Positions 49,575 to 58,188 of a stretch of 64,000 nucleotides of DNA are shown one piece after another (within the stretch, counting starts at the first letter, position 1; every line of letters begins with the position of its first letter). The translations under genes and the position numbers were made by a program. The notes beneath the pieces are model-generated. The model was not told the DNA's origin and did no database searches. It saw only the letters and a program-made list of their open reading frames with translations. Source of the stretch: Kaustia mangrovi (GTDB lineage Bacteria; Pseudomonadota; Alphaproteobacteria; Rhizobiales; Im1); the NCBI RefSeq assembly GCF_015482775.1, contig NZ_CP058214.1, positions 3,400,501-3,464,500 on the forward strand, in the 5' to 3' direction.

Positions 49575-50693
49575 TCAGGCCTCGACCTCCAGGGCGGTGA
49601 GGGGGCGCGAGCAGCAGGCAAGGATGAGGCCGTCGGCGATCTCGTGGTCGAGAATGCCGCCATTGTGGCTCATCTCCACATCGCCGGAGCACTTCACCTT
49701 GCAGGTCCCGCAAAGTCCGAGCTCGCAGGCTGCCGGAATGCGCACGCCGGCGGCGCGGGCGGCCTGCAGCACCGTCTGGCCGGGCACGCTCTCCGTCTCC
49801 GTGTCGGACAGGGTGAAGCGGATCGCCACGGCCTCGCCGTCGGGGCTCGCATCCCCGGCAAGCTCAGCCGCCGCCGCGCTGGTCTCGATGGCCTCCGCGA
49901 GGCTTTCCTCTGGCGGCGTGCCGAAGCTTTCCTGATGATAGGCGGGCATGTCGAAGCCCGCCGCCTTCAGCATCTCGCGCACGGCGCGCATGAACGGCTC
50001 CGGTCCGCAGCAGAAGACCTCGCGCTCGTGGAAGTCCGGCACCAGGAGCGGCAGCCTGACCGCATCGATCCGGCCGCGCTGGCCGAAGCCGCCGTCCCGG
50101 CTCGACCGGTTCTCGACCAGAAAGTCGAGCGACAGGCCCGGCATCCGGTTGCCCAGAAGGTCGAGCTCCTTGCGGAATATGATGTCCTCCGGCGTGCGCG
50201 CGCAATTGACGAAGGCGACATCGGTCCACGGCGCACAGTCATTGAGCCAGCGCAGCATGGACATCATCGGCGTGACGCCCGAGCCCGCCGACAGAAACAG
50301 ATACTTTGCCGCGGGATACTCGTGCAGCGAGAACGACCCTGCCGGCCCGTAGGCCTTGATGTGGCCGCCAGGCCGGAGGTTGTCGAACATCCAGCGCGTG
50401 CCGAGGCTCGCCGCCTGCGCCTTCGCCGTCACGGAGATCGTGAAGGGCCGCGACGGGCTGGAGGAGAGCGTATAGGTCCGGTGGACGGGCTCCTCGTCCA
50501 CGGGTAGCTCGAGCGTGATGAACTGGCCCGGCCGGTAGCGGAACCAGGTCTGGTTGTCGGAGCGGAAGGTGAAGGTCCGCACCTCCGGCGCCTCCTCCAC
50601 CACGCCGACGCATTCGAGCACCTGGAGCGTGTCGTCCCAGGGCGTCATCTCGTCGAGATGCTTGTAGAGGGAGTCCTCTTGCGCTGCGGTCAT
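49575..50693 (-). CDS. gbcB: Glycine betaine monooxygenase, reductase subunit
   Basis: A 372-residue flavin/NAD(P)H ferredoxin reductase fused to a C-terminal [2Fe-2S] domain. FAD site HRTYTLSSSPS, NAD site YLFLSAGSGVTPMMSML, FCCGPEPFMRAVREML, and plant-type ferredoxin Cys in CELGLCGTCKVKC plus a final CC. It passes electrons from NAD(P)H to the Rieske oxygenase encoded just upstream. ATG 50693 is 17 bases after gbcA. The order oxygenase-reductase matches gbcAB operons. Confidence 0.87.
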   Translation of the reverse strand: MTAAQEDSLYKHLDEMTPWDDTLQVLECVGVVEEAPEVRTFTFRSDNQTWFRYRPGQFITLELPVDEEPVHRTYTLSSSPSRPFTISVTAKAQAASLGTRWMFDNLRPGGHIKAYGPAGSFSLHEYPAAKYLFLSAGSGVTPMMSMLRWLNDCAPWTDVAFVNCARTPEDIIFRKELDLLGNRMPGLSLDFLVENRSSRDGGFGQRGRIDAVRLPLLVPDFHEREVFCCGPEPFMRAVREMLKAAGFDMPAYHQESFGTPPEESLAEAIETSAAAAELAGDASPDGEAVAIRFTLSDTETESVPGQTVLQAARAAGVRIPAACELGLCGTCKVKCSGDVEMSHNGGILDHEIADGLILACCSRPLTALEVEA

Positions 50694-50710: not shown

Positions 50711-51958
50711 TCAGGCGACGCCGAGCAGCGCCGGCGCCTCGGTCTCCGCCAGCCGTGGCTCGACGAAGCGGCAATACCAGTCCACGAACTGCATGACGCC
50801 ACCCTCGTGAACCGGCGAATAGGGGCCGGGCTCATAGGCCGGCGAGGCGATGCCGGCGGCGTTCTCCTCCACGATCCGGCGGTCCTGGTCGTTCGTCTCC
50901 GTCCAGACATGGGTGAGCTCGGCCAGGTCGTAATCGACGCCCTCGACGGCATCCTTGTGGACGAGCCATTTGGTCGTGACCGCCGTCTCCGTGGCGCTGA
51001 CCGGGAGCACGCGGAAGGTCACGGCGTGATCGCCGAGCACATGGTTCCAGGTGGTGGGGTAGTGATAGAGGAGCAGCGAGCCGATGCGGTCGGCCTCCAC
51101 CGCGTCGCTCAGCCGGCGGCGGACAGCCGGCCGGCCGCTCATCGTGTAGCTGACCGCGTCTCTGAGAAGTGGCACGCGGATCATGCGGTACTGGCCGCCT
51201 CTATCGATGCGGAAGGCGCTCGCCAGCCCGGCCGCCTCGCAATGGGCCCAGTGGGCGGCCATCTCGGGATCCTCGCCCGACATCTCCACGCCCGAATTGG
51301 TCGGCGCTTCGGGGAAGGTCTTGCAGAGCTCCGGGTGGTTGCCCGCGCAGTGATAGCACTCCCGGTTGTTCTCCCAGACGAGCTTCCAGTTGGCCTTCTC
51401 CACGATGGTGCTCTCGAAGGCGACCTTGGCCTCGGCAAGCCTGTGCGGGGCGAAATAGGGCGCCATGGCCGCGCGCACGGGCGCGAAATCGGCGGGCTCG
51501 TCGGCGAGGCAGACGAAGATGTAGCCGCACACCGCCTCGCAGGCGACGGGCTTGAGCCCATAGCGGCCCATATCGAAATCCGGGCCCATCTGGCGCGCGA
51601 AGACCAGGCGGCCGTCGAGGTCGTAGGTCCATTGGTGATAGGGGCAGACGAGCTTGGCGGAGGTTCCCTTCGCGGCGGTGCACACACGCGAGCCGCGGTG
51701 CCGGCAGGAATTGTGGAAGGCGCGGATCTCGCCGGCGGTGTCGCGCACCACGACGACCGGATGGTCGCCGATCTGGACGGTGAAATAGCTGCCGGTGCGA
51801 GGCAACTCGCAATCGTGGCCGACGAACAGCCAGTCGCGATACCAGATGAGATCCAGATCGAGCCGGAAGTAATCCGGATCGGTATAGAAGGGCCGGTCGA
51901 GGCTGAAGCCCGGTTGCCGGTTGCGGAGCCGGCGAAGCATGTCTGCGCGCACGTCCAT
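50711..51958 (-). CDS. gbcA: Glycine betaine monooxygenase, Rieske oxygenase subunit
   Basis: A 415-residue Rieske non-heme iron oxygenase. The Rieske ligands are Cys85/His87 (NSCRHRGSR) and Cys105/His108 (CPYHQWTYDLDG), and iron ligands His203 and His208 lie in NNRECYHCAGNHPE. TTKWLVHKDAVEGVDYD, TNDQDRRIVEENAAGI and YEPGPYS are shared with GbcA, which demethylates glycine betaine to dimethylglycine with release of formaldehyde. A related quaternary amine (proline betaine) is possible. ATG 51958 has GAGGA upstream. The long leader carries a cobalamin riboswitch. Confidence 0.88.
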   Translation of the reverse strand: MDVRADMLRRLRNRQPGFSLDRPFYTDPDYFRLDLDLIWYRDWLFVGHDCELPRTGSYFTVQIGDHPVVVVRDTAGEIRAFHNSCRHRGSRVCTAAKGTSAKLVCPYHQWTYDLDGRLVFARQMGPDFDMGRYGLKPVACEAVCGYIFVCLADEPADFAPVRAAMAPYFAPHRLAEAKVAFESTIVEKANWKLVWENNRECYHCAGNHPELCKTFPEAPTNSGVEMSGEDPEMAAHWAHCEAAGLASAFRIDRGGQYRMIRVPLLRDAVSYTMSGRPAVRRRLSDAVEADRIGSLLLYHYPTTWNHVLGDHAVTFRVLPVSATETAVTTKWLVHKDAVEGVDYDLAELTHVWTETNDQDRRIVEENAAGIASPAYEPGPYSPVHEGGVMQFVDWYCRFVEPRLAETEAPALLGVA

Positions 51959-52112
51959 GTCCAGTCCTCGTTCTGTCCCAGGGACTGAGCTGGTGGTGAT
52001 GGAGGAGGACACGGACTTCGCCTGCCGGGCCCGGAGACTTGTCCCGACGGATCCGACCGAAGCGATCCCCTCCTGACCGCCCACCGCGATCAGTCGGTTG
52101 CACACCGCCCAA

Positions 52113-52290
52113 GGCTGGTTTCCGGGCTCAGGAGCGTGTCCCTTGGGGGACTGGCGCGGCACCTTCCCGGACACCGGGTTCGGGTCCAGTGGCTTTTCGC
52201 CGCGATTGACGCTCCACTACCGTTGCGGGGGCAGCGCCGGGTTTCGACCGGCTTCCCAATTCTCCGCCACCTCCCTCCGTGGCGGCACCT
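52113..52290 (-). promoter_or_regulatory. Cobalamin (B12) riboswitch in the gbcAB leader
   Basis: Read on the minus strand, all conserved blocks occur in order. They are GGGAAGCCGGT (52257-52247), CCCCGCAACGGTA (52230-52218), the B12 box GCCACTGG (52193-52186) with CGGGAAGG (52169-52162), and the 3' block GAGCCCGGAAACCAGCC (52129-52113). GGAGCGT pairs with ACGCTCC as the enclosing helix. About 155 bases further lies the gbcA start, and no other minus-strand gene intervenes. A hairpin at 52076-52096 could be the expression platform; it lacks a T run, so control may be translational or Rho-based. Confidence 0.9.
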
Positions 52291-52416
52291 CGAGCATGGC
52301 CATCAGACCATCGCTCGCGTGCGCCAGCGAGTGCGAAAGCGACACGCCGCATTCGATGGGCGACACGGGCGATTTTCCATGTGCCGAGCGGTCGCCGGGC
52401 GGCTCGACGAACACAA

Positions 52417-52450
52417 GAAAAATGGCCGATCCCCATGTCGGGGACCGGCC
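52417..52450 (-). terminator. Terminator of the fds / OFA transcription unit
   Basis: GGCCGGTCCCC (minus strand, from 52450) pairs with GGGGATCGGCC (one mismatch), followed by ATTTTTCTTG. It separates the formate operon from the riboswitch-controlled gbcAB unit, so the riboswitch should start a new transcript between here and 52290. Confidence 0.8.
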
Positions 52451-52541
52451 GTAAACCGATGTTTCCGCTTTCGTTTCGTCCGCGGGGGAAGGCGCGGCAG
52501 ATCGGCCTGCCCCCGCGGTTTTCGACCCCCGGTCGCGGGCC

Positions 52542-54261
52542 TTACTCGCCCGGCTGCGAGGCGGGCGCCTCGCGCAGCGGCTGCTTGGCCTCGTGCGTCT
52601 CCATGAAGTGGCGGTCGGCCACGGGACGCACCAGGATGTTGCACACCAGCCCCACCAGCAGCAGGCCGGCCATGGTGAACATGGTCGTGTTGTAGAGGCT
52701 CGGTGTCGGGTCGATCGTGCCCTCCGGGGCGATCGCCATCAGCTTGGAGATGGTGACCGTGTTGGCGGCGATGAGCTGGTCGAGGTTCTGGATCGTCGCC
52801 CCGAAGGTCTCCTGGAACCGCGCCGGGTCGACCTTGGCGGCGAGATCGTGCAGGGCCTGGGCGCGCGAACTCTCCCTGAGCGAGGTGATCGCCAGGGGGC
52901 CGAGCACGCCCGCCGTGCTCCAGGCGGTCAAAAGCCGGCCATGGATGCCGCCGACATATTTCGTCCCGAAGATATCGGCGAGATAGGCCGGAATGGTCGC
53001 GAACCCGCCGCCATACATGGTGAAGATGATCATGGTGGCGGCATAGAAGAGCACGAGCCACATCACCGCCGGGTCGGCGTTCACGGCCTGGGCGGTGAAG
53101 GGGATGGACATGTAGAGCACGAAGCCGAGCACGAAGAACGCGTAATAGGTGTTCTTCCGGCCGATATAGTCGGACATGCTCGCCCAGAAGAACCGGCCGC
53201 ACATGTTGAACACCGAGATCATCAGCACATAGGTCGCCGCGAAGGCGCCGTTGACGATCGTCGGCAGCGTGGTGCCGAAGATCTCGATCATCATGGTCTT
53301 GGCGACGCCGATCACGCCGATGCCGGCGGTCACGTTCATGCACAGCACCATCCAGAGCAGGTAGAATTGCGGCGTCTTGAGCGCCTGGTCGATATGGACG
53401 TTGTTCTGCGTGATCATGCGTTTGGCTGCGGCATCCTCCGCCGGCGGCGTCCAGCCTGCCGGCAGCCAGCCCTCGCGCGGCACGCGATAGGAGAAGGCGG
53501 CGACCATCATGACCGCGAAGTAGACGATGCCGAGCGTGAGGAAGGTCTCCATCGCGCCGGTCGAGCCGGTGCCGACCACATAGACGCCCTCAGGCCCCGG
53601 AACCGGCATCTGGGCGACCTCGTTGGCGCCCACCACGACGACCTCCTTCATGGCGCCGGCCGCCCTCCGTGACGAGCTGGACCTGGTCTACCGTGCCGAG
53701 ATATTCCGGGGCGCGGTAGAACAGGCCGAGCAGCCATTCCTTGAGCGGCGCGGCGATCATCGCGCCGCCGCCGAAGCCCATGATGGCCATGCCGGTCGCC
53801 ATGCCGCGCCGGTCCGGGAACCACCGGATCAGCGTGCTGACCGGCGAGACATAGCCGAGCCCCAGCCCGCAGCCGCCGAGCACGCCATAGCCCAGATAGA
53901 TGAGCCAGAGCTGATGGGTGGCGATGCCGACGGCGGAGATGATGAAGCCGCCGCCCCACAGGAGTGCGGCGACCGCGCCGACCATGCGCGGGCCGACCTC
54001 TTCCAGCCACTTGCCGGCAAACGCCGCGGCAAGGCCCAGGAACACGATGGCGACGGAAAAGATCCAGACGACGGAGCTCAGGGACCAGTCGCCGGGAGCG
54101 CTGGCGACGACGCCGAGCTCGCGGGTCAGCGGCGGGTTGAAGATACTCCAGGCATAGACCGATCCGATACACAGATGGATCGCGATGGAGGCCGGTGGCA
54201 CCTTCCATCGATTGAAGCCCTCAGGGGCTACGATATGCTCCTTCTTCAGCGCGTCGAACAT
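52542..54261 (-). CDS. OFA-family MFS transporter (oxalate/formate type), frame broken
   Basis: The N-terminal half (to about 53660) starts MFDALKKEHIVAPEGFNRWK and contains CIGSVYAWSIFNPPL and WFPDRRGMATGMAIMGFGGGA. The C-terminal half starts near KEVVVVGANEVAQ and contains NVTAGIGVIGVAKTM and YGGGFATIPAYLADIFGTKYVGGIHGRLLTAWS. Both belong to one OFA transporter of about 572 residues. The frames are offset by one base near 53655-53665 (one extra or two missing bases). Intact, it would move formate, oxalate or related carboxylates and fits the adjacent formate dehydrogenase. Confidence 0.75.
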
Positions 54262-55342: not shown

Positions 55343-58188
55343 CTACTCCGCCGCATCCATGGCGGATGCGATCTGCCGGCTGCGGCGCGAGAAGGCGTCG
55401 TACTCCTCCTGCCACGGCGTCGGGCCGTTGGAGGGAGAGACCTGGACGGCTGTGACCTTGTATTCGGGGCAGTTGGTCGCCCAGTCCGAATAGTCCGTCG
55501 TCACCACATTGGCCTGCGTCGCGGGGTGGTGGAAGGTCGTGTAGACGACGCCTGGCGCGACGCGTTCGGTGATGAGCGCGCGCAGCGTCGTCTCGCCGGA
55601 CCGGCTCTGGAGCCTCACCCAGTCGCCGTCGCGCACGCCGCGCTGCTCGGCATCGTGGGGGTGAATCTCCAGCCTGTCCTCCTCATGCCAGACCACATTC
55701 GCGGTGCGCCGCGTCTGGGCGCCGACATTGTACTGGCTGAGAATGCGGCCCGTGGTCAGGAGCAGCGGGAAGCGCGGACCGGTCTTCTCGTCGGTCGCGA
55801 CATATTCGGTGATCATGAACCTGCCCTCGCCGCGTACGAAGCGGTCGACATGCATCACCGGAGTGCCCTCCGGGGCGGCCTCGTTGCAGGGCCACTGCAC
55901 CGAACCCAGCGCGTCGAGCGTCTCGTAGGAAACGCCCGCGAAGGTCGGCGTCAGCCGGGCGATCTCGTCCATGATCTCGCCGGGATGGGCATAGTCCATG
56001 GCAAAGCCCATGGCGTTGGCGAGCGCCATGGTGATCTCCCAGTCGGCATAGCCCGAGCGCGAGCGCATCACCTTGCGCACCCGCTGGATGCGCCGTTCCG
56101 CATTGGTGAAGGTGCCGTCCTTCTCCAGGAAGGTGGAGCCCGGCAGGAAGACATGGGCGTAATTGGCGGTCTCGTTCAGGAACAGGTCCTGGACGACGAC
56201 GCATTCCATGGCCCGAAGACCGGCGGCGACATGGTGCGTGTTGGGATCGGACTGCAGGATGTCCTCGCCCTGGATGTAGATGCCCCTGAAGCTGCCCTCG
56301 ACCGCCGCGTCGAGCATGTTGTTGATGCGCAGGCCCGGCTCGCTGTCCAGCTCGGCGCCCCACAGCGTCTCGAACATGGTGCGCGTCGCGTCGTCGCCGA
56401 CATGGCGGTAGCCGGAGAATTCGTGCGGGAACGAGCCCATGTCGCAGGAGCCCTGCACGTTGTTCTGGCCGCGCAAGGGGTTCACGCCCACGCCCGGCCG
56501 GCCGAGATTGCCGGTCGCCATGGCGAGGTTGGCGATGGCCATGACGGTGGTCGAGCCCTGGCTGTGCTCGGTGACGCCGAGGCCGTAATAGATCGCCGCA
56601 TTGCCGCCGTTGGCATAGAGCCGGGCCGCCTCGCGGACGGTCTCCGCCGGCACGCCGGTCATGGGCTGGACGGCCTCCGGGCTGTTGCGCTCCTCGCTCA
56701 CGAAGGCGGCCCAGTGCTCGAAAGCCTCCCGGTCGCAGCGCTCGCGCACGAACGCCTCGTCGACGAGGCCCTCGGTCACGATCACATGGGCGAGCGCGTT
56801 GAGGACCGCGACATTGGTGCCGGGCCTGAGCGGCAGGTGGCAGGCGGCCTCCACATGGGGCGTGCGCACCAGATCGATCCGGCGCGGATCGACGACGATC
56901 AGCTTCGCCCCCTCGCGCAGGCGTTTCTTGAGCCTGGAGCCGAAGACGGGGTGGCCGTCCGTCGGATTCGCGCCGATGACCACGACCACATCCGCCTGCT
57001 CCACGGAATCGAAGTCCTGGGTGCCGGCGGAGGTGCCGAAGGTGGTCTTGAGCCCGTAGCCCGTGGGCGAGTGGCAAACCCGCGCGCAGGTATCGACATT
57101 GTTGTTGCCGAACCCGCCGCGCACGAGCTTCTGGACGAGGAAGGTCTCCTCGTTGGTGCAGCGCGAGGAGGTGATGCCCCGACGGCGCCGCGCCCGTAAG
57201 TGTGCTGTATGCGACGGAATTCCGTGGTGACATAGCGGATCGCCTCTTCCCAGGAGACCTCGCGCCACGGCTCCTCGATACTGTCGCGTACCATGGGCGT
57301 CGTGATGCGCTCCTTGTGGGTGGTGTAGCCCCAGGCGAAACGGCCCTTCACACAGGAATGGCCGCGATTGGCCTTGCCGTCCTTGTAGGGGACCATGCGC
57401 ACGACCTCCTCGCCGCGCATCTCCGCCTTGAAGGTGCACCCCACGCCGCAATAGGCGCAGGTGGTGACGACGGAATGCTCCGGCTGGCCGATCTCGATCA
57501 GCGACTTCTCCGACAGTGTCGCCGTCGGGCAGGCCTGGACGCAGGCGCCGCAGGAGACGCATTCCGACGACAGGAACGGCTCGTCCATGCCGGCGGCGAC
57601 CCGCGAGCCGAAGCCGCGCCCGTCGATCGTCAGCGCGAATGTGCCCTGGACCTCCTCGCAGGCACGCACGCAACGCGAGCAGACGATGCACTTGGACGGG
57701 TCGTAGGTGAAATAGGGGTTCGACTGGTCCTTCTCGTCGCCGAGATGGTTCTCGCCCTCATAGCCGTAGCGCACGTCGCGCAGGCCCACCGCGCCGGCCA
57801 TGTCCTGCAGTTCGCAGTCGCCATTGGCCGCGCAGGTCAGGCAGTCCAGCGGGTGATCGGAGATATAGAGCTCCATCACCCCACGGCGGAGTTTCTTCAG
57901 ACGCTGCGACTGGGTGGTCACCGCCATGCCCTCGGCGACCGGCGTCGTGCATGAGGCGGGCGTGCCGCGCCGGCCCTCGATCTCGACAAGGCACATGCGG
58001 CACGAGCCGAAGGGCTCCAGCATGTCGGTCGCGCACAGCTTGGGGATCTCCGTGCCGGCCTCCATGGCCGCGCGCATCACCGAGGTGCCCTCCGGCACCG
58101 TGACCGCGACGCCGTCGATGGTGACGGTGACCGTCTTCGCAGAGGGCGATGCCGGGGTGCCGTAGTCGGTTTCGGTCACGAGTGTCAT
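55343..58188 (-). CDS. fdsA: NAD-linked formate dehydrogenase catalytic subunit FdsA, frameshifted
   Basis: Expected 948 residues. An N-terminal [2Fe-2S] domain (PFGSCRMCLVEI), a His-Cys cluster region, two [4Fe-4S] ferredoxin motifs (CIVCSRCVRACEE, CVSCGACVQACP), the MGD-domain cluster (CAYCGVGC), then the molybdopterin domain with Cys as Mo ligand in DTCARVCHSP. Coding breaks after YGRGAVG. One G missing from the run at 57177-57180 explains it, since the other frame resumes with ITSSRCTNEETF. The active-site residue is Cys, so it is not a selenocysteine UGA. It oxidises formate to CO2 and passes electrons to FdsB. Confidence 0.88.

Follow-up and report, generated by a model that had tools for sequence, protein, structure and literature searches.

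A cobalamin riboswitch ahead of a GbcAB-like betaine demethylase gene pair, read as a backup to a corrinoid-dependent route

Cobalamin riboswitches are known to control B12-independent isozymes, as with metE beside metH. The 2003 surveys of B12 elements by Rodionov and by Vitreschak reportedly placed a dioxygenase/ferredoxin-reductase-like gene pair, ardX-frdX, next to a B12 element; we presume that this may be the same pair as the gbcAB-like genes studied here, in which case the interpretation of the linkage, and not the linkage itself, may be what is new. To our knowledge, ardX-frdX has been linked neither to betaine nor to MtgBCD. Isozymes of B12-dependent enzymes form a named regulon class under cobalamin riboswitches (PMC3766115), and the words 'dioxygenase' and 'betaine' are absent from the main text of that study, whose regulon tables are supplements and may hold an entry. 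For betaine itself, MtgBCDE of Ruegeria pomeroyi was shown experimentally in 2025 to be an aerobic, cobalamin-dependent glycine betaine demethylase that serves methionine synthesis (PMC12478193). The main text of that paper has 'riboswitch' only in a reference title and reports no B12 control of gbcAB; in searches of the open-licence PMC literature, no paper was found to connect a cobalamin riboswitch with gbcA or with a Rieske betaine demethylase. As a class of mechanism, B12 riboswitches on B12-independent isozymes are established; for this particular pair of enzymes, the open literature searched offered no example.

We analysed a window of 64,000 nucleotides from Kaustia mangrovi (contig NZ_CP058214.1, positions 3,400,501 to 3,464,500 of the forward strand). 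As in the metE/metH class, an RF00174 element precedes an enzyme that would do without B12 what another does with it; unlike that class, the target here is a putative O2-dependent catabolic demethylase, and the presumed partner is MtgBCD, not MetH or ribonucleotide reductase. We propose, with a probability of roughly 80%, that this cobalamin riboswitch represses a gbcAB-like O2-dependent betaine N-demethylase that acts as backup to the corrinoid route. With B12 plentiful, the riboswitch would keep the oxygenase low, because an MtgBCD corrinoid methyltransferase in the same cell (with MtgE and a RACo-like reactivator) would then demethylate betaine. With B12 short, the aptamer would be empty, the ribosome site of gbcA would open and the Rieske enzyme would take over, yielding formaldehyde instead of methyl-tetrahydrofolate.

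The cobalamin riboswitch leader

The RF00174 covariance model matched over its full length (1-189) at 52307-52096(-) with 98.9 bits (E 1.7e-23), far over the gathering score of 31.5. The initial annotation had placed a B12 riboswitch on the minus strand at 52113-52290, and this span proved to be the core of the match. The aptamer (52096..52307, minus strand) carries the L5 loop CUGCCCCCGC and ends 137 nt before the start codon of the gbcA-like gene; the leader is predicted to bind cobalamin, and gbcA would respond to B12. Four RF00174 matches were found in the whole 4.63 Mb genome, the gbcA leader being one of them. Behind the other three lie the gene of a Peripla_BP_2 protein (btuF-like), a TonB receptor gene (btuB-like) and a gene run with cobW, targets that look like ordinary B12 genes.

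On its upstream side, the leader is set apart from the preceding MFS and formate dehydrogenase genes by an intrinsic-terminator-like hairpin at 52450-52424(-), with a 12-pair stem and a T-tail, about 90 bases past the end (52542) of the upstream MFS-type frame. The terminator that had been predicted at 52417-52450 was thus recovered, in a scan that found 1 against an average of 0.6 in shuffles, a count that is not significant by itself. No sigma-70 consensus promoter was found in 51900-52600. Further upstream, the MFS transporter (lactate or oxalate/formate type; 52542-54261(-)) is divided between two frames, both of which match half of the family profile, and the formate dehydrogenase alpha subunit (55343-58188(-)) appears split over the overlapping frames 56899-58188 and 55343-57691, suggestive of a frameshift or of an indel in the assembly. 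At the other end of the window, an RF00519 (suhB/mmgR) small RNA was matched at 1065-991(-) with 53.1 bits.

The regulatory hairpin and predicted switching

Cobalamin riboswitches generally have an L5 loop and, further downstream, a regulatory hairpin whose loop is complementary to it. Directly 3' of the aptamer we found a P13-like hairpin (52073..52093, minus strand), whose loop L13 reads GCGGUGGGC at 52087-52079(-) and is complementary to L5. We then compared 57 leaders, comprising the window's, those of 53 of the 54 riboswitch-bearing named loci described below (L095 omitted) and L012, L013 and L014; the set retains near-identical leaders from Mesorhizobium and stops short of the riboswitch-bearing loci obtained later. 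L5 has the same sequence in all of them (57/57), and L13 reads GCGGNGGGC, complementary to L5, in 56/57. The P13 stem covaries in these relatives: its four stem pairs were 96.2% paired across 26 distinct hairpins (86.2% in shuffles), and its covariation score of 0.527 was attained neither in any of 500 shuffles nor in a slid version.

These features weigh on the possibility that the leader is a relic or serves something else, gbcA being transcribed from a downstream promoter of its own and lying outside B12 control. Such a reading would fit the 137 nt between aptamer and start codon and the fact that no promoter has been mapped; it sits badly with the retention of L5 and L13, with the covariation of P13, with an aptamer-to-start gap of 92-137 nt across the 57 leaders bar three at 214-217, and with the decayed state of the sole riboswitch found without MtgC (L095, below). 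We consider it scarcely credible, and retain repression by a working riboswitch as our reading.

As to how the switch might operate, an anti-P13 strand, CCACCAGCUCAGUC (51983..51996, minus strand), has the loop of P13 and its 5' arm as predicted pairing partners. When anti-P13 is not formed, this strand is predicted to pair instead, through CAGUCC at 51987-51982(-), with the ribosome-binding region, where sequence and predicted folding place a Shine-Dalgarno-like region of gbcA, GAGGACUGG (51961..51969, minus strand). When the window's leader was forced into either state, the predicted openness of the ribosome site was 0.78 with anti-P13 versus 0.35 with P13. Across the 57 leaders, counting changes above 0.1, the site was more open with anti-P13 than with P13 in 29, less open in 2 and within 0.1 in 26. 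This was the only folding comparison that separated the two states: forcing P13 took mean openness in the 57 leaders from 0.41 to 0.38 (9 down, 2 up), going from native to P13-forbidden folding took it from 0.36 to 0.40 (7/57 up by more than 0.1, 0 down), and the anti-P13 duplex was not stronger than in shuffles (mean z -0.4; 4/57 in the best 5%). Attenuation by a terminator within the leader was considered and set aside; a translational platform is preferred because the terminator scan gave only the terminator upstream of the leader. We therefore infer a translational mode that would act through mutually exclusive P13 and anti-P13 pairings; the folding comparison weakly suggests a shut-off stabilised by B12, and repression by B12 would be the direction of control.

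The Rieske enzyme pair and its corrinoid-dependent counterpart

The first gene 3' of the leader encodes a gbcA-like Rieske oxygenase of 415 aa (50711..51958, minus strand; ATG 51958) of the quaternary-ammonium demethylase family, intact and full length against its relatives. Its stop codon is followed after 17 bases by the ATG (50693) of a gbcB-like ferredoxin/FAD reductase of 372 aa (49575..50693, minus strand). The initial annotation had called these genes gbcA and gbcB; their identity as Rieske oxygenase and reductase holds, but both proteins fall under the curated cut-offs and the oxygenase belongs to a separate clade. GbcA (NF058607, cut-off 670) is the best NCBIfam family of the oxygenase, which scored 525 bits on it; the reductase, scored in a form one codon longer than the 372 aa one, reached 382.6 bits on NF058606, whose cut-off is 500. 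The riboswitch-bearing relatives L009, L012 and L014 gave 500-519 bits on NF058607 (517-519 for two clade mates). At E <= 1e-10 the oxygenase is the sole gbcA-type homologue in the genome. The nearest solved structures are PDB 3vca and 4qup (543 bits over 399 residues), with entry names of a ring-hydroxylating dioxygenase and a demethylase, which we take to be the stachydrine demethylase Stc2 of S. meliloti. Similarity to this solved GbcA/Stc2-type member runs over the full length of the protein, and the Rieske Cys/His motifs are kept.

We placed the oxygenase in a 132-row FastTree phylogeny that includes 7 over-cut-off GbcA rows and has several long branches. In this tree the window's clade of 95 rows stands apart from the GbcA and Stc2 clades and nearer to Stc2 than to GbcA. 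The locus thus resembles GbcAB of Pseudomonas and Chromohalobacter in its oxygenase-reductase pair and best-matching families and differs in its scores and clade, and also in its leader, since none of the 20 over-cut-off GbcA loci scanned had a riboswitch within 1.5 kb; Stc2 is its closest solved relative, but from a different clade. By homology the pair is GbcAB-like, not certified GbcAB, and the oxygenase is most readily classed as a quaternary-ammonium N-demethylase; its score under the GbcA cut-off and the position of its clade nearer Stc2 make any assignment to one particular betaine tentative.

Glycine betaine or a close relative is the probable substrate. A 70% identical orthologue on pTAV3 of Paracoccus versutus has as neighbours a GlxA-type regulator, ETF, folD, a formaldehyde dehydrogenase and a BCCT transporter, a glycine betaine breakdown-type context that favours glycine betaine. 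Alternatively, the enzyme might act on another betaine (proline betaine/stachydrine or a carnitine-like compound) with a different MTTB homologue as partner, under the same OFF-switch logic. The resemblance to the structures taken as Stc2, the sub-cut-off GbcA score and the position of the clade all speak for this alternative, as does the existence of MTTB homologues for several betaines described in PMC12478193. Set against these are the Paracoccus gene context, which suggests glycine betaine, and the plasmid records of S. meliloti, which hold both Stc2-like genes (~57%) and closer relatives (~70%) of the window's enzyme. We regard a different betaine as a serious possibility that we would nevertheless bet against, and continue with glycine betaine or a close relative.

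For the corrinoid side of the proposal, we found three MTTB-family genes in the genome. Two of them share one cluster with genes of the mtgC type (corrinoid protein; PF02310, PF02607), the mtgD type (pterin-binding methyltransferase; PF00809) and the mtgE type (homocysteine methyltransferase; PF02574), together with those of a RACo-like reactivator and a DUF1638 protein. This MTTB, MtgC, MtgD, MtgE and reactivator complement is homologous to that of Ruegeria pomeroyi (PMC12478193). The mtgB/C/D/E-like and RACo-like genes are, as judged by homology, a B12-dependent betaine demethylase set, so that a B12-dependent counterpart enzyme appears to be encoded alongside the Rieske pair in the same genome; that the MTTB enzyme and the Rieske enzyme share one betaine is putative. 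Of the genes that the initial annotation had suggested looking for, those of the mtg type were therefore present, and metE was represented by one partial match below the cut-off, with no full-length metE found in the genome. A metE/metH pair was accordingly rejected here.

Conservation of the leader and its association with MtgC

We sought relatives by scanning GTDB genomes with a seven-protein alignment; as six of the seven carry the riboswitch, the 80 named loci (the best 80 of at least 588 relatives) are near relatives by design. With a riboswitch covariance model built from nine hits (R1), the riboswitch was found directly upstream of the gbcA-like gene in 54 of these best 80 of at least 588; a regex search returned the same set minus L095. 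The link between leader and gbcA, whose conservation had been left as a question, is therefore kept in relatives, and it also tracks MtgC. The riboswitch likewise precedes the gene on pSymB of S. meliloti Ak57, and five of the six plasmid loci tested had none, including the window-clade members L153 and L156. In a family of the same class outside the window's order, 3 of 7 genomes carried it (L143, L159 and L160). Some members of the Stc2 clade carry it (L014, L143), and the Stc2-like locus L157 does not. None was found at the homologues L015-L037; among 29 loci from relatives, 20 were scanned with Rfam and nine (L027-L031, L034-L037) with model R1.

Several other features were observed at these loci. 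At L101 (5508-5313(-)), L108 (5488-5293(-)), L102 (8968-8760(-)) and L160 (1758-1950(+)), a further cobalamin riboswitch was found close to that of gbcA, on the opposite strand. In several lineages, represented by G050, G061, G087, G385, G571 and L102 (9031-12864), no more than ~5 kb separates the gbcA-like gene from one resembling metH. The genes of two records, one titled Bacillus subtilis SK6B4 (L117) and one Sphingomonas paucimobilis NBRC 13935 (L069), group with Brucellaceae and Paracoccus, a misplacement due to contamination, mislabelling or transfer.

We then recorded MtgC (>=69% identity) in the 80 named genomes, the best of at least 588, and found it in 54. Riboswitch and MtgC occurred together in 53 and were both missing in 25, leaving one genome with the riboswitch without MtgC (L095) and one with MtgC without the riboswitch (L097). 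Four genomes were counted as positive from fragments (L051, L055, L059 and L066; 69-84% identity), and MtgC-like matches of 31-38% identity that lay within large frames were attributed to MetH and left out of the count. The L095 aptamer, still at 57.9 bits on RF00174, has lost the CCACTG and GGGAAGG blocks and has an altered L5, as expected of a decaying element. Over the 84 rows of the window's clade the association gave a Fisher's p of 2e-19, a value that ignores descent.

To take descent into account, we used a quick IQ-TREE tree of 105 rows (66 with both, 34 with neither, 4 with MtgC only, 1 with the riboswitch only). This set excludes the distant homologues L019-L037, over-cut-off GbcA rows, the six plasmid loci and Stc2, as well as L009, L011 and L150, whose genomes were already represented; L147, apparently from the same genome as L050, was kept. 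Eight independent contrasts fell on supported branches, 4-6 of them concordant; in the remainder MtgC did not differ, and no contrast ran in the opposite direction. A sign test over these contrasts was borderline, with a median p of 0.06 under the original scoring and of 0.03 when L095 was treated as degraded. MtgC was present in 66/67 riboswitch-bearing rows, the exception being L095.

A Rieske gene that lacks the riboswitch also coexists with MtgC, in L097 of the window's clade, in G466, G519 and G553 of the Stc2 clade, and, where the Rieske homologue is more distant, in G004, G070, G106 and G278. In this sample the rule therefore runs in one direction: MtgC accompanies an intact riboswitch, but a riboswitch does not always accompany MtgC. 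Among the 20 genomes with an over-cut-off GbcA, which has no riboswitch there, MtgC was found in 1. In G278, an over-cut-off-GbcA genome outside the class, the MtgC (C1:56058-56732) is 74% identical, possibly through transfer.

A general loss of B12 riboswitches was rejected as the cause of their absence from gbcA, since all 33 genomes tested that lack an intact gbcA riboswitch had an RF00174 match elsewhere, over the cut-off in 32; G175, for instance, has a decayed gbcA leader and two other RF00174 matches. The same genomes bear on a further interpretation, in which B12 shortage would turn on betaine breakdown so that glycine and C1 units become available for making B12 (5-aminolevulinate, SAM), the riboswitch being part of a B12 biosynthesis regulon and not of an isozyme pair. 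Betaine feeding raises the B12 yield of industrial producers (PMC8123684), and a cobW gene lies behind another riboswitch of the genome (L008). This interpretation does not predict that riboswitch and MtgC should be absent together, as they are in genomes that keep other B12 riboswitches and large MetH-type matches, and we hold it to be very unlikely. Our preferred reading remains the one already put forward in the initial annotation, a B12-independent, O2-dependent isozyme that is off under B12 and paired with a corrinoid route, which gains support from the mtg genes and from the conserved link that tracks MtgC.

Taken more widely, it seems somewhat probable that a B12 riboswitch sets the choice between corrinoid-dependent transfer to folate and methionine and O2-driven formaldehyde production across Hyphomicrobiales and at least one further family of the class, only where both routes coexist. 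If the switch works as read, it would show how such cells choose between the cobalamin-dependent demethylase (PMC12478193) and the oxygenase, and it would explain why these genomes retain two enzymes for one step. It would also provide a genomic marker, an intact riboswitch on gbcA predicting MtgC in the same genome, and would tie betaine turnover in soil, rhizosphere and ocean to the supply of B12.
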